Source: a virus. Taken from it: a stretch of 22,043 nucleotides of DNA. The DNA is taken from positions 1 through 22,043 of the IMG/VR virus record IMGVR_UViG_3300025545_000024; one strand, given 5' to 3'. Numbering within the stretch: the stretch's first letter is position 1; the number at the start of each line of letters is the position of its first letter. This document shows, piece after piece, positions 5,062-22,043 of this stretch. The notes under the pieces were generated by a model, which worked only from the letters and a program-made list of their open reading frames with translations, was not told the origin of the DNA and did not search any database. A program made the position numbers and the translations under genes.

Positions 5062-6126
5062 ATGAAAAATATCAAGTATAATATCTTGATATGTTTATTT
5101 ATTATGTTTATAGGTGTCAAGTTTAACATATCAGCACAAGAAAACGGATCATTTGAAAATGTTATTAAAAAAGCAAACCAATCAGTAGTATTGTTATCTA
5201 CGAATCCTAATGCAGACCCAGAAACGAACGCATCACGTACTGGTTTATGTACTGGAACAGTTGTTGATAATATAGGTCATGTTATTACTAATTTTCATTG
5301 TATTTACAAACAAAATTATATAAAATTATATTATCACGAGCAAACTGATTGGAGAGAGTATGAAATAAAGATAATAGGTGTTGATCCCCTTGCTGATTTA
5401 GCTTTACTTAAAATTATAGGAAAAAAAGAACCGATTCCTTATCTTGAATTTGTAAAAGACACCAATGCAATATCAGTAGGTGCTGATGTTTTCGCCATAG
5501 GCCATCCTATGGGAATGATTTGGTCTGTAACCAAAGGAATTGTTTCTAGCATTGACCGATTTGTAGGACATCCTTTTATCAAAGCGATACAGACTGATTC
5601 CGCGATCAATAAAGGAAATTCTGGAGGCCCTCTTCTGAATATGAAAGGAGAAATTGTAGGAATCAATACGTTAATCGTTTCTACAATCTCTGAAAATGCA
5701 GGAATTGGTTTAGCGATTAGAAGCGATATTGTAAAAACGTCTTTAAATTCTATGTTAATGTTTGGAAAAGTCGATAGACCAGCAATTGGTGTTATGGTTG
5801 TACCATTAAATCTGAAAAAACAAAGAGAAAAAATTATAACAAAATTTCCTGAAATTGACCCAGAATTCGTTCCGAATACGTTTGGGGTATTCGTATTGCC
5901 TAATGACAGTTTTCCGCCGGACTTAAATAAATTTGATACCATTATTGGAATTAATGGTGTAATTATTAATACTGGATTACAGTTTTCAAATGAAATATAC
6001 AAATATAATATAGGAGAGACGGTCGCATTAACGATTGTGAGAAAACGAAGATTTCTAATTGTGAATGTTCTTTTAAAAAGACTCTTTATTAATGCAGATG
6101 TAATGTATGCCTCAATACGAGAATAA
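5062..6126 (+). CDS. Secreted HtrA/DegP-like serine protease with one PDZ domain
   Basis: A 354-residue S1C-type trypsin-fold protease. Residues 1-25 are a hydrophobic signal peptide with a plausible cleavage at SAQ, so the protein should act in the periplasm. The triad is visible: H79 (TNFHC), D112 (DPLADLALL) and S187 (GNSGGP, 185-190). From about residue 235 a single PDZ-like domain begins (RPAIGVMVVP) and includes FDTIIGINGVII. HtrA proteases degrade or refold misfolded envelope proteins. AAGGA at 5051-5055 supports the start. It sits between gp44 and gp62, splitting the normal clamp-loader pair, so it looks like an acquired host-type gene. The target is unknown. Confidence 0.9.
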   Translation: MKNIKYNILICLFIMFIGVKFNISAQENGSFENVIKKANQSVVLLSTNPNADPETNASRTGLCTGTVVDNIGHVITNFHCIYKQNYIKLYYHEQTDWREYEIKIIGVDPLADLALLKIIGKKEPIPYLEFVKDTNAISVGADVFAIGHPMGMIWSVTKGIVSSIDRFVGHPFIKAIQTDSAINKGNSGGPLLNMKGEIVGINTLIVSTISENAGIGLAIRSDIVKTSLNSMLMFGKVDRPAIGVMVVPLNLKKQREKIITKFPEIDPEFVPNTFGVFVLPNDSFPPDLNKFDTIIGINGVIINTGLQFSNEIYKYNIGETVALTIVRKRRFLIVNVLLKRLFINADVMYASIRE

Positions 6127-14093: not shown

Positions 14094-14813
14094 ATGTATA
14101 AATTTATGCTGATAATATTGTCATTCGTAGTAACAATATTTTCAAGTTCCTGCGCCCCCTATCCAGTTGTGGCGACAACCCCTGTTAATAAAATTAGTGA
14201 AAAAGTAGGACTGCCATTTGGTACTGTCATAACTCTTGGCGGTAAAAAAATGGTTGTAATTAGTCAAGAAAATGAAGAAGTAAGATTACAACTTTTCAAA
14301 CCTGTAATTGTAAAAGCAGTAATTCCTAAGGTAAAGGTTACTGAAATTATTTCTGATCTTCCAACGCCAGAATGGGAGAGTAAAACAGTTATTACAGAAG
14401 GCGTAAAAAATGTTCAAGAGTGTCTTAATCCTATGGGTTGTCCTCAAGACACTAAAACAGGTGAATGTCTTAAAGGATGCACTGAACAAAAAGTACGTGT
14501 TGAAATCATAGAAACAATCGTTGATTCGACAAATGTTATCACAAACGAAATAATTGATCCTGATGTAGTTTTAAATGCTTTATTGTTAATAGATCCCACT
14601 AACGGATCATGGAAAAATCATCATAGTCCACATTATGGAAAGATTACTTGGATATGTGTTTTGGCAAACAATATAGGTTTTCCAAAATCTGTAATAGCAT
14701 TGTCAAAACTGATTTATAATATTCCGGGCCTTCTAGACAAATGTAATAGAGCATTTGCTCACAATTCATTGGCGAATAGCTGGACAAATGAGTCAACACT
14801 GTCTTCTCTTTAA
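14094..14813 (+). CDS. Probable exported lipoprotein of unknown function
   Basis: A 239-residue protein with a lipoprotein-type signal: a short positive start (MYK), a hydrophobic run (LIILSFVVTIF) and an imperfect lipobox SSSC with C20 as the lipidated residue. This places it in the cell envelope. The mature protein has two strand-rich stretches (GTVITLGGKKMVVISQE, then VRLQLFKPVIVKAVI). Next comes a four-cysteine cluster spaced C-x5-C-x8-C-x3-C near residues 110-130 (ECLNPMGC, ECLKGC). The C-terminal 80 residues have a different, more hydrophobic character. I recognise no family. Envelope lipoproteins from phages can serve superinfection exclusion, but that is only a possibility. AGG at 14087-14089 is a modest ribosome site. 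Confidence 0.7.
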   Translation: MYKFMLIILSFVVTIFSSSCAPYPVVATTPVNKISEKVGLPFGTVITLGGKKMVVISQENEEVRLQLFKPVIVKAVIPKVKVTEIISDLPTPEWESKTVITEGVKNVQECLNPMGCPQDTKTGECLKGCTEQKVRVEIIETIVDSTNVITNEIIDPDVVLNALLLIDPTNGSWKNHHSPHYGKITWICVLANNIGFPKSVIALSKLIYNIPGLLDKCNRAFAHNSLANSWTNESTLSSL

Positions 14814-14835: not shown

Positions 14836-14843
14836 AATAAATA
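14836..14843 (+). promoter_or_regulatory. Late-promoter-like box before the cargo genes
   Basis: AATAAATA fits the NATAAATA late-promoter motif of T4-like marine phages, about 42 bases before the ATG at 14885. The surrounding TATAATAAATAG is close to the T4 late consensus. A small hairpin AATAGT/ACTATT follows. The site is AT-rich, so chance occurrence is possible; its place before head-type genes favours it. Confidence 0.45.
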
Positions 14844-14884: not shown

Positions 14885-16120
14885 ATGCTTTTATTTAAAG
14901 AATTTTTATTAGAATCTCAGGGTGCTAATAAGCACCTTGAACATTTAGAAGATGAAGTTTTAAACGGTGGATTTGATGGTGTAAAAAAAGCAATCACATA
15001 TTTAAGTTCATTAGGATCAACACTAAAAGGGGATTCTTCTAAACAAATTAAAATAACAACTAAATGGGATGGGGCTCCTGCAGTTGTGGCCGGAATCGAT
15101 CCTGAAACTGAAAAATTTTTTGTAGCCACTAAGCATGGTGCATTTTCAAAAGTACCCAAATTAAATTTTTCAAATGAAGACATTGAAAATAATCACGAGG
15201 GTGGGTTACAGGAAGTTTTAAAAGATTCTTTGAGATATCTTAAAGATATTGGAATGGATGGCGTTTATCAAGGGGATTTATTATACAGTCCACAAAAACC
15301 TACAACGATACAATCTATAGATGGAGAATCGCATATTGTTTTTACTCCAAACACTATAACATATGCGATTAAATTAAAAAGTGAATTAGGGAAAAAAATA
15401 AATGCTTCAAAATTAGGCATTGTTTGGCATACAAAATATACTGGTGAAGTAGTAAATCAAATGAATGCTACATTTGATGTAAATGTTGATAATTTTAAAC
15501 AAACATCAAGTGTGTGGTTTAAAGATGCTGAATATGAAAAAATGGACGGAATAGCATCTTTTACTAAAGAAGAAACTGATTCATTTTTCAGTGTGCTTTC
15601 ACTGGCTGGTAAGTTATTTAGAACTCTTGATAAGAAGTTACTTGACGGTATAAGAGATGATAAATATTTAAATACGCAAATTAAAGCATTTGCTAATTTT
15701 AAAATACGGCAGGGTAAACCCATTGGAAATGTTAATGCACATGTTATTGGATTGATTAAATATTTACAACATAAATTAACTAACGAGGTTGATAAATTAA
15801 AATCAGAAAAGGGCAAAGAAAATAGACGTAAAAAAAATGAAGACATTTTAAAATTTTTTACAGAAAATAAAAATGCTTTGAAAAACATGTTTCAAATGCA
15901 AAATGTTCTTATAGCCGCTAAAATGATAATAATTAAAAAATTACAAGATATTCAGCCCATGACAAAAACATTTATTCAAACCGATAATGGGTTTGAAATT
16001 ACGAATCCGGAAGGATTTGTTGCAGTTACAATTGCTGATGGAGCAATAAAACTAATAGATAGATTAGAATTTTCAAGACAAAATTTTTTAGCACCAAAAA
16101 CATTTGGGAGTAAAGCATAA
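14885..16120 (+). CDS. DUF6267-like protein with N-terminal capsid-targeting peptide and KxDG motif
   Basis: A 411-residue protein matching, by eye, the DUF6267-type family of T4-like marine phages. The first ten residues, MLLFKEFLLE followed by S, resemble the T4 internal-protein capsid-targeting sequence MKTYQEFIAE, and L8-L9-E10 before S11 fits the gp21 site L/I-x-E. This suggests packaging in the head core and trimming. The rest has TKWDGAPAVVAG with a KxDG-like site (K60-W61-D62-G63), FFVATKHG, and VYQGDLLY (127-134). These are reminiscent of motifs I and III of covalent nucleotidyltransferases (ligase or capping enzyme fold). Catalysis is unproven. AGGA lies 5 bases before ATG. Its stop overlaps the next start. 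Confidence 0.8.
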   Translation: MLLFKEFLLESQGANKHLEHLEDEVLNGGFDGVKKAITYLSSLGSTLKGDSSKQIKITTKWDGAPAVVAGIDPETEKFFVATKHGAFSKVPKLNFSNEDIENNHEGGLQEVLKDSLRYLKDIGMDGVYQGDLLYSPQKPTTIQSIDGESHIVFTPNTITYAIKLKSELGKKINASKLGIVWHTKYTGEVVNQMNATFDVNVDNFKQTSSVWFKDAEYEKMDGIASFTKEETDSFFSVLSLAGKLFRTLDKKLLDGIRDDKYLNTQIKAFANFKIRQGKPIGNVNAHVIGLIKYLQHKLTNEVDKLKSEKGKENRRKKNEDILKFFTENKNALKNMFQMQNVLIAAKMIIIKKLQDIQPMTKTFIQTDNGFEITNPEGFVAVTIADGAIKLIDRLEFSRQNFLAPKTFGSKA

Positions 16121-16533
16121 TGGAAGTATCAGAACAAAATCTCTTAAACAAATTAGGCGAATCTTATATGAAAATAGTATTGACTGAAGATGTTGATGCT
16201 CGATTAAAAAGATTAGCAAGAGAAGGTTTAATTAATCAAGATGAATATGCACTGTTTCTTAAAACAATGCAAGATTTAGAAGCCGATAAAAAGCCAAATC
16301 CAAAACAAAGAATGATGATTATACGGATTTTTGATAAGCTCCTTGGTCTAATTATGGGGGACAAGGTTGTGTATCAAAAGATATTGCAAACTGTTAAAAA
16401 GAGCAAAAAAAATAAAGAAAAAATTAAAGAAGATACTTTTAGATCAACTCATACAATAATTGTTCATGAAGGCATAGAATATTATGTGACTGCTGATAAA
16501 GAATTAATAGAAGTACCATCTTCATTTGAATAA
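16120..16533 (+). CDS. Small conserved phage protein of unknown function
   Basis: A 137-residue protein. The N-terminal 95 residues look helical, with the recognisable stretch RLAREGLINQDEYALFL and KQRMMIIRIFDKLLGLI. A short strand-rich end follows (HTIIVHEGIEYYVTADKEL). It starts at an A shared with the previous stop (TAATG), so translation is coupled to the DUF6267-like gene. It is probably made with the head-cargo genes. Unlike its neighbours it lacks a clean capsid-targeting peptide at the N-terminus, although VLTED lies near residue 22. I cannot assign a function. A similar small protein occurs beside DUF6267-type genes in related phages, from memory. Confidence 0.7.
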   Translation: MEVSEQNLLNKLGESYMKIVLTEDVDARLKRLAREGLINQDEYALFLKTMQDLEADKKPNPKQRMMIIRIFDKLLGLIMGDKVVYQKILQTVKKSKKNKEKIKEDTFRSTHTIIVHEGIEYYVTADKELIEVPSSFE

Positions 16534-16541
16534 ATAATTCT

Positions 16542-18524
16542 ATGAAGATTTATAAAAAGTTTTTAGTAGAAACAAAGCAAGAAAAGACGGCAATTGCAAC
16601 TTTTGGGAGAATGAATCCTCCTTCTATAGGTCATGTTAAACTTGCAAAAAAGATTTTATCAGAGGCAAGAAAGCATAAAGCAGAACCTTATATTTGCTTG
16701 TCTCCTACTCAGAATGCTAAAAAGGATCCTTTGGGTCCAGAAAGAAAACTTTATTATGTTGAAAAAACGATAGGTCCACATATTCATATTGATGTTAAAC
16801 CTACAGTTTTTGAAGCATTATCTGATTTGTATTCTAAAGGATTTAAAAAACTTGTATTTGTTGTTGGTAGTGATAGACTAAGTAAATTTTCAAAATGGAT
16901 ATCACAATATAATGGAGTAGAAGGAAAAGCTCATGGATTTTATGATTTTACAGATATTGATTTTGTAAGTTCAGGAGACCGTGATCCCGATGCTGAAGGT
17001 GCCGCTGGAATGTCTGCATCAAAATTAAGAGAGTTTGCAGTTTCTGGAGACATTGATAGTTTTAAAAAAGGTACGAAATTATCTGCTAAAGATACAAAGT
17101 CTATGTATAACGAAATTAGGAAGGCTATGAAACTTGAAACCATAAAAACGGAACAAATTAATTTGAAAGAAGCACTTCGCCCTGAAAAAGTACCCGCACA
17201 TAAAATAAAAGAAGGTAGAGAATTTCCCAAAACACCAGCAGACAAGAAAGCTCATTTACATAAATTATTTAAAAAAGTGGCAGATGTAAAAAAACAAAGA
17301 GAAAAAGATTGGGGCGTTAGCATAGTAGATAAAACCCCTAAAGGATATGGCCCTGATGAAGAAGCCCCCCCTGGAAGAGAAATACAAGTAAAAACATTAA
17401 AAAAGAAAGTGGGTGCGGATAAAGCATATGCGTTTGCTTGGGCGCAACATAATAAACATGGATTGCCAGAGGGTACTGGATTACAAGTAAAAATGGCTTT
17501 AGATGATGCAGGAGTAAAGGGAGAGTTTAAAGATGGAAAAGTTAATGTTCATAAAAAACATGTAAAAAAAGCACATAAGGCTTTAAAGGGAAATGTTTAT
17601 TATAAAGGAAAAACTCCTGATGTTGTGGGAGAAGATATAATTGATGAGGAAAAATTTTCGAATAAAATGATAGATAAACTGAAACAGCAATATGAGCCGT
17701 GGAGAGGGAAAAGAATTAGTTTGGGTAGAAATGTAGAATTAGAGAAAATAGTAAGACAACTTGCAAAAAATAAAGATGCATTGACACAACTTGTTAAAGC
17801 AGATATTCCTTTTATTTCTATGAATGCAAGACTAATTATGCATCAGGATCATGGTGTGCCTCTGAATAAATTTGAAGGAGTGGAAAATCCATATGCTAAT
17901 TTGAAAAAAGGACCGTCTAGAGCAACGATTCATAAAATGTGGGCAAATAAACAACAAGAAAAGAAAAAGAAAATGATGAAGTCCAGTCATCCAGGATATA
18001 ATGAAGAAATTATAATTGATGAAATGGGACATATTGTAAATATAAGTGAGGCTAAAGCACAGTTCACTATAGAAGAAAATTTAAAAAGGAAAGCAGAACA
18101 ATCAGGCATTTCATTTAAAATTTTAGAAAAAGTGTATGATCGTGGAGTTAGTTCGTGGAAAACTGGTCATAAACCAGGAACTACTTCTCAAGAATGGGCA
18201 GAGTCAAGAGTTAATTCGTTTTTAACTGGCGGCAAAACCAGATTAATCGCGGATGAAGACTTATGGAATCAAGTTAATTCTAAACACAGAATAAAGGAAG
18301 AAATGGACACAGATCAGGCATTTAAAAAATGGTTGGCTATTAGTGAAGCAGATGTAGTTATAGACACTCCTCAGGGCAGATATGTAAAAGCAGGAAATGT
18401 TGCTTCTGCAAAAATAAAAGCAAAAAAATCATTTAGGGACCATAAAGACAAGATAAAAGTAACTAGTAGACTTGCCACGCCTTTAGATAAAAAATATCTT
18501 CAACACAAAGACGGAGAGGCATAA
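16542..18524 (+). CDS. Cytidylyltransferase/NMNAT-like protein fused to extra modules, with capsid-targeting peptide
   Basis: A 660-residue multidomain protein. Residues 1-10, MKIYKKFLVE before T11, resemble the T4 capsid-targeting peptide. Residues 17-200 are a nucleotidyltransferase fold of the cytidylyltransferase/NMNAT type: GRMNPPSIGH (22-31, the HxGH-type motif) and GMSASKLREF (from 156, the ISSTxxR-type motif with R163). Such enzymes use ATP or CTP and release pyrophosphate; NAD+ synthesis is one option. L208-K209-E210 before A211 ends this module at a protease-type site. The rest holds basic regions, a DUF5872-like stretch (SWKTGHKPGTT to FLTGGKTR, about 531-565), and two further sites, I501-S-E503/A and I600-S-E602/A. 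No Shine-Dalgarno precedes ATG. A stop-start contact leads into the next ORF. Confidence 0.8.
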   Translation: MKIYKKFLVETKQEKTAIATFGRMNPPSIGHVKLAKKILSEARKHKAEPYICLSPTQNAKKDPLGPERKLYYVEKTIGPHIHIDVKPTVFEALSDLYSKGFKKLVFVVGSDRLSKFSKWISQYNGVEGKAHGFYDFTDIDFVSSGDRDPDAEGAAGMSASKLREFAVSGDIDSFKKGTKLSAKDTKSMYNEIRKAMKLETIKTEQINLKEALRPEKVPAHKIKEGREFPKTPADKKAHLHKLFKKVADVKKQREKDWGVSIVDKTPKGYGPDEEAPPGREIQVKTLKKKVGADKAYAFAWAQHNKHGLPEGTGLQVKMALDDAGVKGEFKDGKVNVHKKHVKKAHKALKGNVYYKGKTPDVVGEDIIDEEKFSNKMIDKLKQQYEPWRGKRISLGRNVELEKIVRQLAKNKDALTQLVKADIPFISMNARLIMHQDHGVPLNKFEGVENPYANLKKGPSRATIHKMWANKQQEKKKKMMKSSHPGYNEEIIIDEMGHIVNISEAKAQFTIEENLKRKAEQSGISFKILEKVYDRGVSSWKTGHKPGTTSQEWAESRVNSFLTGGKTRLIADEDLWNQVNSKHRIKEEMDTDQAFKKWLAISEADVVIDTPQGRYVKAGNVASAKIKAKKSFRDHKDKIKVTSRLATPLDKKYLQHKDGEA

Positions 18525-21500
18525 ATGAAACCGAACCCACTTCATGAAAACTGGAAAACACTTGCGCCCGGTTTATTCACAGAACCCGAAAACGATTTAA
18601 TATATAAAGAATTTTTAAAATTGAAAGAGCAAGGAGATGTCCATCATCATCATTATGCTAAAGACGATAATCCTGATGATAAAAAAAAACGTGAAAAAGA
18701 TGCTACTGCAAACGTCAAGAAAAAATCTAATAAATCAAACAATGATGATGAAACGCCAGCACAGAGTCGTAGTGAAAAAAAGAAAAAATTGGATCCTGTT
18801 GGCAAAGAAGATGGAGATATAGATAACGATGGAGATATAGATAATAGCGATAAATTTCTTGCAAAAAAAAGAAAAGCAATTAATAAGTCAATTAAATCTC
18901 GACAAAATACAAAATCTGAAAAAAGTATAAAATTATCGGGTAAAAAAGAAAAAATTGAAATTTACAAAGGAATTGAAGAAAATAAGAAACGATATACTAA
19001 AGATATTTTTGCTTTCGGTCAAAAAATTAAAAATCGACAAAGTGTTTTCGAATGCAGAAAAATAAATAAAAATTATGATGCAAATATCGAAAAGAAAACC
19101 GTTGACCTCAATGAAGGTGGAGATCAAATTTGGTTCAAAGGAATTAAAATGACTTTTGATGAATATTCTTTGATTTTTGCAACAATGTATGTTCCTGGCT
19201 CAAGAGTATTGCCAACAGAAGTTGCACCAGACAATTCCAAATATGGATCATTGTTGAAGAAATTGCCACGAAAAGATCAAAATTGGGTAGTATCATTACT
19301 CAAAGATTACATGAAACGTGGTGGGGTAGTTCATAAAGATGTTGTTAAGAATTTTGTTTTGAAAGAAGAAGTTGAACTTAATGAAGCACTTAAACCAAAA
19401 GATAAAGATGTCATACAGGCGTTTTATGATAAAGAAAGTTTGGAAGGTAGATTACTCTCCACTGATGGTAAGACATTAGAAAAACTTGGTATGGGTGGTC
19501 AAACAATCGCAGTGTGGAAAAACAATAAGATTGTAGTTACTGCTGTGAGCGATGTCAAATCAACAGATGAAATACTTAGATATATGAAAAAATCTATACC
19601 AAAACTCAATTTTGATAAAAAAAGTTGGCAAGAGTTTTTCGAGGAAGTTGAACTTGATGAAAGGCATGGAGGATGGAAGCCCGGCCCATATAACATTATT
19701 AATGTAACGACAGGAGAAATTCTTCAGGTAGTTAAAACTGGTACAGGAGCCAAAAGAATTGCAGATAAAATTAATTTTTCGCCCAAGACTCCCGATGATC
19801 AGATGGTGGGAGTATATCATGTGGACGCTAGAAATGATACGACAACTATAAGATGGTGGAAAAAGGAAAATGGAAAAAAAGTATATTATGGCGATTTAAA
19901 ATCAGTCAACTGGTCTAAAATTAAACCGGGCGCTAAATCTGAAGAAGTTGCTGAAGGATGGAAAAAAGGTAAGTATACAATTAAAGACGAAAATGGAAAA
20001 ATACTTGGCACATACAGTTCTGGTGGTAAAGCTAAAAAGGTAATGGATGACCTTATGCAAAAAGGTGATTACCCCGAACTAACTGTCTCAATGGTAGAAG
20101 AAGTTGAAGTTGCTGAAAAATTTGCAGGATGGATTGCAATATATGGTGGAAAGCAATTGGAAATTAAGAAAAGTGAAGCAGATGGAATATGGCCCGCAAA
20201 ACAATTAGCAATTAAACACTTTAAAGTTCCTAAATCGAAACAAGGACTTCTTGCGATTAAACCAGCAGAAGAGGAAGTTGAACTTGGTGAAGCCGCATCA
20301 AAATATAAAAACGAGTTTGTCAAATATGCAGTAGAAATTATTAAAAAACTCAAAAAAGATGGTAAGATTGATGACTCGACAAAAGATAGTTTAATTATAA
20401 ACACCATTTCCCCTATCATGGGTAGTATGGGTAGTCAACGTGAACGTTCCGTCTATAAAAAATACTTCCCAGACAAATATGATTTAAAACTTTTCGACAA
20501 TTCTGGAGGCAATCAATATGATTCGGAATGGTCATCCCAGACTGATGCTAAAATGGACACAATTGCAAAGATGGCATTGAAAAAATTTAGACAAAATGAA
20601 GAAGTTGAACTTGGTGAAATGTCATATGTAATCAAATACAAAAAGGCAAAGAATAGATATTTGAGTAACAAGTCCAGAGATGTTGATAACACAAAAGATG
20701 CACTCCAATTCAAATCAGAAAAAGATGCACAGTCAACACTGAATGGTTTAGATTATCAGTTCAGAGGCAATTATGAAATTGTTAAAGAGGCCAGTGATAG
20801 TTGGGATGAGTGGAAAAATACAAGAATACAATCTAAAAATATCTTCAGAATGTTAAAACAAAAACATAAAAATAATATTCCTAAAATGAAGAGTGGTTTA
20901 GAACTCATCTTTAAACAAAATAAAACAAAACCAGACCAAGAAAAAGTAATGTGGCAGGAATTTAATAAATTTTTCAAAATCAAAGAAGACGTTGAACTTG
21001 GTGAAGCCGCATCAAAATATACAATCTATCACAAAACTTTTACCTCTGCGGCAACTCATGCCAAGGATTATGCAGAAAAACAGGGGTATGATTTAGATGA
21101 TGGCGATTGGAACAGAGAAGTCACTATGGGCGGTGCTTCTGGAAGAGGTCGGCCAGGTGAAGGAAAGACCAAAAGGTTTAATATCGGGTTGGAGAAAAAC
21201 GGTAAACCACAAAAGAAAAGGTTACAATTTCAAGTCTTCGGAATGCCTAAGGGTTCATATGAATTGAATATGTATATTGAAGAAGTTGAACTTAGTGAAG
21301 CGGCCGTGAAAACAAAATTGCGTGATCTTTCTCAAGAATTATCCGCTTATGCAAAAAAACATAGAAATAGTATTGATAGCTTATATTTTAAAAAACTTGC
21401 ACAAATAGCCGCCTCAGGAAAAATTCCTTCCGTTCAGGACATTGATAATGAAATAGAACCACGAAAAATTGTTTTAGATATGATGGCTAAATCTTTTCCT

Positions 21501-22043
21501 GAAGAATTTATTAATCAAGATCATTCACAAAGTAAAGATTCGATAAAAAATCAATCCGGGCTTTTTTATGCACGACATGGAGAAAACGATGAAGTAAATG
21601 AAATAACTACAGGATTACTTAGTAGAGCCGCAAGTAAAGCCGAAGTTCAAGGGAGAGAACCCGGAGGTTCTGGTGGAGCAAGTGCAAATTATGGAAATAA
21701 CTCCGGCAAGGTAAGAAATAAACGGAAACTCCAATCAGTTAAATTCGCAAAGGCTTTTTCTAAAAAATATTTTAAAAACGAGGATAACATGATAGAAAAT
21801 TTAAAATCAATCGATAAAGAAATTGATAAATTTCATAGTCGAACTAAACACTTAAAATATCTTTCCGGGAAAGATCGTGATCACATGCGAATGTTATCAA
21901 GAAAAAGAGATGGCTTTTTAAAAAATAACGAAGTCGAAGAAGCAGTTAATGAAGAATTTAAGTCAAGAATTTCTAACAATCCAATAGTAAATAAACTTTA
22001 TTTGATGAATCAAGCAAAATCTATTGCAAAAGAAATCACGGGC
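18525..22043 (+). CDS. Giant modular capsid-type polyprotein, C-terminus beyond window
   Basis: The ORF starts at ATG 18525, directly after the previous stop, and remains open for all 1173 codons to the window end. Residues 1-196 are polar and basic, with HHHH at 40-43 and a calcium-loop-like DGDIDNDGDIDNSD (96-109). From there the chain is a string of small domains, separated by E-[ED]-V-E-L-x-E linkers. The glutamate before each predicted cut is E197 (VDLNE/G), E287, E379, E589, E698, E827 and E925; E477 and E531 have V in place of L. The sites fit the T4 gp21 consensus L/I-x-E, mostly followed by A or G. Near the start, YKEFLKLKE (27-35) resembles a capsid-targeting peptide. The modules are unrecognised. 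It was not listed as closed because no stop occurs here. Confidence 0.85.
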   Translation, partial: MKPNPLHENWKTLAPGLFTEPENDLIYKEFLKLKEQGDVHHHHYAKDDNPDDKKKREKDATANVKKKSNKSNNDDETPAQSRSEKKKKLDPVGKEDGDIDNDGDIDNSDKFLAKKRKAINKSIKSRQNTKSEKSIKLSGKKEKIEIYKGIEENKKRYTKDIFAFGQKIKNRQSVFECRKINKNYDANIEKKTVDLNEGGDQIWFKGIKMTFDEYSLIFATMYVPGSRVLPTEVAPDNSKYGSLLKKLPRKDQNWVVSLLKDYMKRGGVVHKDVVKNFVLKEEVELNEALKPKDKDVIQAFYDKESLEGRLLSTDGKTLEKLGMGGQTIAVWKNNKIVVTAVSDVKSTDEILRYMKKSIPKLNFDKKSWQEFFEEVELDERHGGWKPGPYNIINVTTGEILQVVKTGTGAKRIADKINFSPKTPDDQMVGVYHVDARNDTTTIRWWKKENGKKVYYGDLKSVNWSKIKPGAKSEEVAEGWKKGKYTIKDENGKILGTYSSGGKAKKVMDDLMQKGDYPELTVSMVEEVEVAEKFAGWIAIYGGKQLEIKKSEADGIWPAKQLAIKHFKVPKSKQGLLAIKPAEEEVELGEAASKYKNEFVKYAVEIIKKLKKDGKIDDSTKDSLIINTISPIMGSMGSQRERSVYKKYFPDKYDLKLFDNSGGNQYDSEWSSQTDAKMDTIAKMALKKFRQNEEVELGEMSYVIKYKKAKNRYLSNKSRDVDNTKDALQFKSEKDAQSTLNGLDYQFRGNYEIVKEASDSWDEWKNTRIQSKNIFRMLKQKHKNNIPKMKSGLELIFKQNKTKPDQEKVMWQEFNKFFKIKEDVELGEAASKYTIYHKTFTSAATHAKDYAEKQGYDLDDGDWNREVTMGGASGRGRPGEGKTKRFNIGLEKNGKPQKKRLQFQVFGMPKGSYELNMYIEEVELSEAAVKTKLRDLSQELSAYAKKHRNSIDSLYFKKLAQIAASGKIPSVQDIDNEIEPRKIVLDMMAKSFPEEFINQDHSQSKDSIKNQSGLFYARHGENDEVNEITTGLLSRAASKAEVQGREPGGSGGASANYGNNSGKVRNKRKLQSVKFAKAFSKKYFKNEDNMIENLKSIDKEIDKFHSRTKHLKYLSGKDRDHMRMLSRKRDGFLKNNEVEEAVNEEFKSRISNNPIVNKLYLMNQAKSIAKEITG
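18810..18844 (+). repeat. Tandem 17-base repeat encoding a calcium-loop-like segment
   Basis: GATGGAGATATAGATAA occurs at 18810-18826 and again at 18828-18844 (period 18). It encodes DGDIDN twice (residues 96-107), giving a D-x-D-x-D-G-D pattern like dockerin or EF-hand loops. Similar 'DIDNDGDIDxSDK' segments occur in other marine T4-like phage proteins, from memory. Confidence 0.75.
20277..20307 (+). repeat. 31-base exact direct repeat, copy 1 (polyprotein linker)
   Basis: This stretch, encoding V-E-L-G-E-A-A-S-K-Y, is identical to 20991-21021. It contains the proposed cleavage site after E589. Other linkers share the shorter core GAAGTTGAACTT. Identity over 31 bases at a linker suggests recent recombination or duplication of module ends. 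Confidence 0.85.
20991..21021 (+). repeat. 31-base exact direct repeat, copy 2 (polyprotein linker)
   Basis: Identical to 20277-20307, 714 bases apart (an exact number of codons, so in frame). It carries the proposed cleavage site after E827. Recombination between the copies would delete two modules without changing frame. Confidence 0.85.

Follow-up and report, generated by a model that had tools for sequence, protein, structure and literature searches.

In bacteriophage T4, the capsid-targeting sequence (CTS) of the internal protein IPIII is described, in the parts of PMC9026906 that deal with it, as directing targeting through residues 4 and 7 and cleavage by the prohead protease gp21 through residues 8 and 10, with gp21 cutting after L/I-x-E. 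IPI, according to the corresponding part of PMC3012670, is an injected protein that gives protection from a restriction enzyme. Polyvalent proteins such as P1 DarA and DdrB are presented in the relevant part of PMC5512222 as large, multidomain and head-packaged, some of them cut beforehand, with a predicted role in counter-defence. Here we analyzed the IMG/VR record IMGVR_UViG_3300025545_000024 (22,043 bases of a marine T4-like phage, the whole of which is referred to below as the window), in which a DUF6267 gene and a cytidylyltransferase-fusion gene both begin with a peptide of the T4 type and are followed by a large modular polyprotein. The locus is probably a variant of the T4 internal-protein cargo, with a protease-cut tandem cargo.

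The record is no longer than the window, and the locus is open at its 3' end; in a contig of 56.7 kb (G001) it is identical to the window and extended further. The locus also occurs in the cultured or complete relatives Melnitz, HTVC008M and phage C48C1, which are all classified in the Kyanoviridae. T4-like phages of this type are among the most abundant ocean viruses. The genes of the locus and the two peptides are arranged as follows.

14885..16120, + strand, DUF6267 gene, 411 amino acids (aa), PF19782
14885..14914, + strand, capsid-targeting-like peptide MLLFKEFLLE at the DUF6267 N-terminus, predicted cut before S11
16120..16533, + strand, 137-aa open reading frame (ORF) between the two peptide-bearing genes, no assigned function, position and length the same in G001-G004
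16542..18524, + strand, cytidylyltransferase-fusion gene, 660 aa, PHROG cytidyltransferase
16542..16571, + strand, capsid-targeting-like peptide MKIYKKFLVE at the cytidylyltransferase N-terminus, predicted cut before T11
18525..22043, + strand, modular polyprotein, 1173 aa within the window, open at the end; 1413 aa in G001

An earlier note on this DNA had pointed to a shared N-terminal pattern in the ORFs at 14885 and 16542, and both ORFs and both peptides were found there. The row that it saw as three large genes in fact holds four genes, including the 137-aa ORF at 16120-16533, and the largest starts at 18525 and leaves the window. That note mentions neither the polyprotein nor a likeness to ligases.

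In the mechanism that we propose, both N-termini, that of the DUF6267 protein and that of the cytidylyltransferase fusion, would be capsid-targeting propeptides of the T4 internal-protein type. They would dock their proteins into the scaffold core during prohead assembly, and a T4-type gp21 would then cut after the Glu of [LI]-x-E. The polyprotein would be a tandem cargo of small domains with acidic EEVELxE| linkers between them. Most likely, gp21 would cut it and the cytidylyltransferase tail into separate small proteins, which would remain in the head and pass into the host along with the DNA. Taken as a whole, with T4-type tags docking two proteins, gp21 cutting and a tandem cargo polyprotein, this account appears to us rather likely.

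Both peptides, MLLFKEFLLE|S and MKIYKKFLVE|T, fit the T4 tag at all four mutation-mapped residues (4, 7, 8 and 10). As translated from NC_000866, IPII and IPIII start MKTYQEFIAE|A and IPI starts MKTFKEFTSTTTPVSTITE|A; the earlier note had given the first of these starts for the T4 internal proteins at large; it is that of IPII and IPIII. In an alignment of 44 DUF6267 relatives (~44% identical), residue 4 is F/Y in 37/41 sequences, residue 7 is F/Y in 37/41, residue 8 is L/I in 39/42 and residue 10 is E in 41/42. Residues 2, 3, 5, 6 and 9 are variable, and besides Met only 4, 7, 8 and 10 are held; at P1', Ala is the commonest residue (19/42).

From IMG/VR, 102 DUF6267 loci were examined, of which 96 had a readable start and six were dropped for having no readable motif or start (L084, L099, L116, L121, L135 and L136); the contig of the dropped L121, G016, does carry the DUF6267 N-terminal peptide. 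Since many of the loci are near-identical, they were collapsed to 33 clusters at 70% identity. A full CTS-like pattern was found in 81/96 loci (15/96 miss it), and [VLIMF]xE precedes the conserved HLEHxED core in 93/96. Among the 33 clusters, 28 have the full pattern and 32 have [VLIMF]xE, and the strict core [FY]xx[FYL][LIV]xE is present in 22; the pattern behind the 81/96 count is looser than that behind the 22/33 count. Within the DUF6267 bodies the strict core occurred in 0/7062 windows of 16 aa.

Tag-like starts were also sought among called genes more widely. With counts summed over seven related contigs and up to six start codons tried per gene, the pattern M-x(1,4)-[FY]xx[FYL][LIV]xE was found at 18/910 called gene starts vs 6/3936 internal Met positions. 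A scan for further genes with such a start had been suggested in the earlier note, and besides DUF6267 and cytidylyltransferase, HAD phosphatase genes of G001 and G017 were among the matches. The HAD phosphatase at 49256-49867 of G001 (L040) has the tag-like N-terminus MKTFKEYVLEK; that at 131148-131753 of G017 (L155, minus strand) has MQSFKQFITE|Q.

A T4 gp21 family match was found in G003, adjoining a gp22-like scaffold gene and gp23. In the contigs scanned for gp21, all classed as possible fragments, PF03420 was above cut-off in 2/16 close or short contigs, 6/8 longer DUF6267 contigs and 6/12 contigs with the YHK module described below. An L-x-E site, placed by eye, precedes the conserved gp23 shell domain in 5/5 relatives, with gp23 reading FLTE|G in G003, FLSE|A in G016, LLME|T in G017, ILSE|T in G018 and MLNE|T in G019. 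G024, which is the contig of L230, has two gp21 family matches within one 620-aa open frame on its minus strand (113140-114741); this may point to a duplication or to an inserted element, for instance an intein.

Homologues of the cytidylyltransferase have been detected in virions. The parts of the respective reports that concern it place it in purified S-SM1 virions (PMC3037559) and in S-CREM2 virions with 3 peptides, where the authors warn of co-purification (PMC10665884), and an NMNAT-like protein in S-SCSM1 virions (PMC9602691). The earlier note had both proteins packaged in the capsid and probably delivered to the host. Targeting is supported by conservation of residues 4, 7, 8 and 10, by gp21 and the gp23 L-x-E sites in relatives and by these virion homologues; we infer cleavage, packaging of DUF6267 and the modules, and injection.

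ORF 18525 encodes a polyprotein built of modules, the order of which differs from phage to phage. In its relatives from G002-G005, G009 and G010 the two ends are kept and the same small modules stand in other orders, and some of the modules sit instead in the tail of the cytidyltransferase gene. Modules were matched by ungapped chained matches, as gapped BLAST gave alignments smeared across modules. Acidic linkers connect them, for example EEVELNE|A, EEVELDE|R and EEVELGE|A, and in the window the segments and linkers lie as follows.

18678..18932, + strand, DGDIDNDGDIDNSDKFL-motif segment, residues 52-136, phrog_4359 E 7e-12; also in the protein adjoining gp21 in the distant contig L034
19371..19385, + strand, linker VELNE|A, predicted protease site
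19647..19661, + strand, linker VELDE|R, predicted protease site
19941..19955, + strand, linker EEVAE|G, predicted protease site before module GWKKGKYTI, which is bounded here in relatives
20103..20117, + strand, linker VEVAE|K, predicted protease site
20277..20291, + strand, linker VELGE|A, predicted protease site
20604..20618, + strand, linker VELGE|M, predicted protease site
20991..21005, + strand, linker VELGE|A, left of the YHK module
21006..21284, + strand, YHK module, residues 828-920, alpha/beta domain of ~90 aa, AlphaFold2 pLDDT 84.5
21285..21299, + strand, linker VELSE|A, right of the YHK module

In L034 (8351-9139), the protein adjoining gp21 has a VGKEDGDIDNDGD...RRK motif in common with the polyprotein start.

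The linker form [DE]x[DEN][VLI]xE was counted 37 times in the 11,617 aa of 14 such polyproteins vs 39 times in the 56,777 aa that the remaining called genes of four contigs encode. Seven such motifs stand in the G001 polyprotein, vs an average of 0.76 in its shuffles, and none in the G001 cytidyltransferase gene. At boundaries supported by at least two chains in IMG/VR contig proteins, [VLI]xE lies within 4 aa of reordered-block ends in 56/126 cases (18.7 expected) and of block starts in 46/126 (18.8 expected). A search for peptidase families in the window polyprotein gave none at E <=0.1 (Pfam, PHROGs), a level at which a divergent one could escape.

The YHK module offers the closest view of these sites. 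The whole polyprotein had no match at E 0.01 by tblastn against the phage collection, yet the YHK module is widespread in IMG/VR and present in Melnitz, with at least 439 relatives among 599 stretches by profile search. Its flanks were counted on 25 unique copies of the 43 recognized by pattern in 80 loci from that search. To the left of the module, [VLIMF]xE lies within 12 aa in 25/25 unique copies (chance 20% per 12-aa window); to the right, a site is found in 12/13 internal copies with at least 7 different neighbors, and 12 copies terminate the protein at YELNMY/YELNVY plus two residues, with no linker. The module is predicted to fold confidently on its own (the model listed above), with no confident known fold or clear PDB relative (Foldseek E >=0.098; VIA best Z 5.0). 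In L193, L194 and L196 it is the sole module of a 107-aa ORF that has a tag-like start, MKSFKNFIEARG.

Several observations weigh against the cargo account. Orthologues of DUF6267 lacking the peptide, which the earlier note had named as the refuting case, do occur in a minority: by [VLIMF]xE, L098, L107 and L026 (3/96 IMG/VR loci), and also S-PM2 p141 and Syn9 gp183. The strict core was found in only 18/41 unique cytidylyltransferase N-termini (distant loci), and several have none; that of HTVC008M starts MKTLKELLRKK, without a cleavage-type site. The window polyprotein itself begins without a clear tag (MKPNPLHENWK...), the linker P3 is often Val, T4 preferring Leu or Ile, and the stand-alone YHK protein has FIEA rather than FxxE, with the Glu one place early. 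The stricter [DEN][VLI]xE is only about twofold above expectation at block boundaries (ends 13/126 vs 6.1, starts 13/126 vs 6.4), and the boundaries counted are related and not independent, so no probability is given. A PF03420 scan did not find gp21 in the window or G001, both of which are fragments.

In two of the cases where DUF6267 lacks the peptide, the neighboring cytidylyltransferase keeps one (MKNFFQFLTE|A in L026, MKKFSAFLSE|A in Syn9). Given the exceptions in both proteins, the tag is usual, not universal. The annotated start of the C48C1 cytidyltransferase (L058 18515) looks too late, and the in-frame upstream VIKNFSQYLLEEEREVYFTFGRMNPP would give a tag-like peptide. As judged from sequence, the case for capsid targeting is strong for DUF6267; for the cytidylyltransferase it is good. 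The module boundaries support the reading of ORF 18525 as a putative protease-cut cargo polyprotein.

The propeptides might be genuine and the polyprotein nevertheless a structural protein of the head core or scaffold, its acidic and basic modules building or filling the head and then being degraded or retained, with no action in the host. In G003, comparable acidic or lysine-rich stretches are seen in gp22 and in the basic protein adjoining gp21, the protein adjoining gp21 in L034 has a DGDIDNDGD segment, and the T4 core is likewise cut by gp21 (PMC9026906, where it treats the core). However, the modules are reordered, gained and lost among close relatives, which variable cargo fits better, the YHK module has a compact, conserved fold and is also found on its own, and the neighbors of the polyprotein are enzymes. 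We consider a structural role unlikely, although it is the best of the alternatives.

Slightly less likely again is that the linkers are merely flexible acidic spacers and that the polyprotein acts uncut in the infected cell, with shuffling tolerated at the spacers. Shuffling at disordered linkers is common, and the frequent Val at P3 and the E-rich sites would suit such spacers. Yet the linker ending is fixed beyond acidity, E100 being invariant in a six-copy YHK alignment; the left-hand site is present in every unique YHK copy regardless of the preceding module, and its forms LNE|A, VSE|A, FTE|A and MDE|A resemble the gp23 and CTS sites of relatives. A very improbable alternative is that the N-terminal pattern arose by chance or marks a common amphipathic start helix with no capsid link. 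Only ten residues are involved, and AT-rich genes are rich in codons for M, K, F, L and E. This reading was rejected on the internal-Met and body-window controls (the latter set against 22/33 cluster N-termini); positions that agree exactly with the T4 map and a residue after the Glu that is most often Ala also speak against it.

Cargo delivered in this way would include predicted enzymes. PF19782 matches the first gene over its full length (E 9.6e-104, 348.1 bits vs a cut-off of 27), in agreement with its earlier designation as DUF6267-like; the word DUF6267 was not found in the open-licence papers searched. In an AlphaFold2 model of the protein (mean pLDDT 83; residues 1-17 below 50), all 50 VIA-align entries listed are nucleic-acid ligases, RNA ligases first, with Z of 8.0 for Naegleria RNA ligase, 7.1 for T. 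brucei REL1, 6.9 for Trl1 and 6.6 for both T4 Rnl1 and Rnl2. The residues invariant across 44 DUF6267 sequences include K60, D62, G63, E376, G377 and K389. The superfamily of ATP-dependent RNA/DNA ligases (covalent nucleotidyltransferases) has the KxDG Lys in motif I, a Glu in motif IV and a Lys in motif V, and we take K60-W-D62-G63, E376-G377 and K389 to be these motifs. On the other side, the fold-match Z is moderate (best 8.0, root-mean-square deviation 3.8, 180 aligned), the best Foldseek E of 0.061 is weak, and the DUF6267 profile had no meaningful match among PDB sequences (best E 0.64). Judging by the model and these residues, DUF6267 is probably an RNA-ligase-like covalent nucleotidyltransferase with a helical insertion, a prediction that is new in this analysis.

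The nucleotidyltransferase that the earlier note saw at 16542 matches PHROG cytidyltransferase (phrog_3041, E 1.8e-59) and contains GRMNPPSIGH, a nucleotide-binding motif of the GH type; Pfam CTP_transf_like is below cut-off in the window (13.6 vs 21 bits) and above it in L159. The enzyme domain covers approximately residues 3-203 and is followed by a modular tail with DUF5824 at residues 517-569, the tail modules being common to, or swapped into, ORF 18525 of relatives. PHROG 455 joins DUF6267 and cytidyltransferase in a single profile. In G018 and G019 the cytidyltransferase gene extends past IRE|GVHD or LNE|GVHD into a Zeta_toxin/AAA_33-type kinase (the kinase profile scan was done on the G018 protein), and in HTVC008M such a kinase is gp129, between the DUF6267 and cytidylyltransferase genes. 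At 52203-52901 of G001 (L040), a Zeta_toxin/AAA_33-type kinase starts MIQFNSFIEKTELTE|GVYD and is related to the modules behind cytidyltransferase in G018 and G019.

Together with the kinase and the HAD phosphatases of these phages (phrog_415), the ligase-like DUF6267 resembles an RNA-repair set, and we infer a cargo role in RNA repair or counter-defence. More tentatively, and with somewhat less than even confidence, we suggest that the capsid protease cuts about ten different small effectors from one chain in the prohead, and that these are injected along with packaged enzymes of RNA repair and nucleotide metabolism (RNA ligase and cytidylyltransferase; in relatives, kinase and HAD phosphatase). 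Module swaps at protease sites would then let a phage quickly change the counter-defence set that it delivers.

Upstream of the locus lies the following feature.

14836..14843, + strand, late-promoter-like box AATAAATA, its ATAAATA kept upstream of DUF6267

ATAAATA stands 42-59 bases 5' of DUF6267 in 15/15 relatives listed. In the AT-rich window, matches to the AATAAATA box with <=1 mismatch numbered 99 vs 86 expected, which is no excess. The TATAAATA count in the window, not above chance, was rejected as support for the box; the late-promoter-like box proposed in the earlier note thus draws on its conservation and not on its frequency in the window. In L006-L023 a near-perfect palindrome, ATAAATAGT...ACTATTTAT, surrounds the box upstream of DUF6267 and is partly decayed in the window; it could be a pair of divergent late promoters or a hairpin. 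Directly 5' of the locus, at 14094-14813, lies a lipoprotein-like ORF (SSSC lipobox, by eye) that has the same place in G002-G004. Farther away, 5062-6126 of the window encodes a trypsin-like (HtrA-like) protease with a Trypsin_2 match (E 2.4e-27), a PDZ match and an apparent signal peptide; G003 and G004 carry an N-terminus similar to that of this protease.

If the cargo account is true, the head cargo of Kyanoviridae-type phages, so far drawn from scattered virion proteomes, would become readable by tag and protease site, DUF6267 would gain its first functional assignment, and the recurring cytidylyltransferase in cyanophage virions would be explained. One gene would load many injected proteins by a modular, protease-cut route. 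Tag and linker might also serve as parts for packing several proteins into phage heads.

Compared with described systems, the locus is like T4 IPI, IPII and IPIII in the ten-residue N-terminal peptide (F/Y at 4 and 7, L/I at 8, E at 10, an L/I-x-E cut) and in having many unrelated bodies behind one tag, as far as the relevant parts of PMC9026906 and PMC3012670 go. Unlike those of T4, the bodies here include predicted enzymes, and a single gene strings modules in tandem after internal [VLI]xE sites, an arrangement that those parts of the T4 accounts do not describe; a published precedent for such tandem cargo was not recognized in the portions of the open-licence literature consulted, and one may exist elsewhere. 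The cyanophage virion cytidylyltransferase (NMNAT-like, T4-GC190) is of the same family by homology as the gene at 16542, whereas in the relevant parts of its published descriptions it is taken alone, with no targeting peptide, protease site or modular tail given.

Phage RNA-repair sets of RNA ligase, polynucleotide kinase and HAD phosphatase are reviewed for jumbo phages in the section of PMC7824862 devoted to them, and the phages studied here likewise encode a HAD phosphatase and a Zeta_toxin/AAA_33-type kinase in addition to the ligase-like DUF6267. In contrast to the sets of that section, the members here have capsid-tag-like N-termini or follow LNE|/IRE| sites, which suggests packaging before infection. 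The nearest published idea to the polyprotein is that of the polyvalent proteins: in the part of PMC5512222 concerned, embedded peptidase domains release their parts, whereas the candidate sites of the window polyprotein, in which no such domain was found, are gp21-like.

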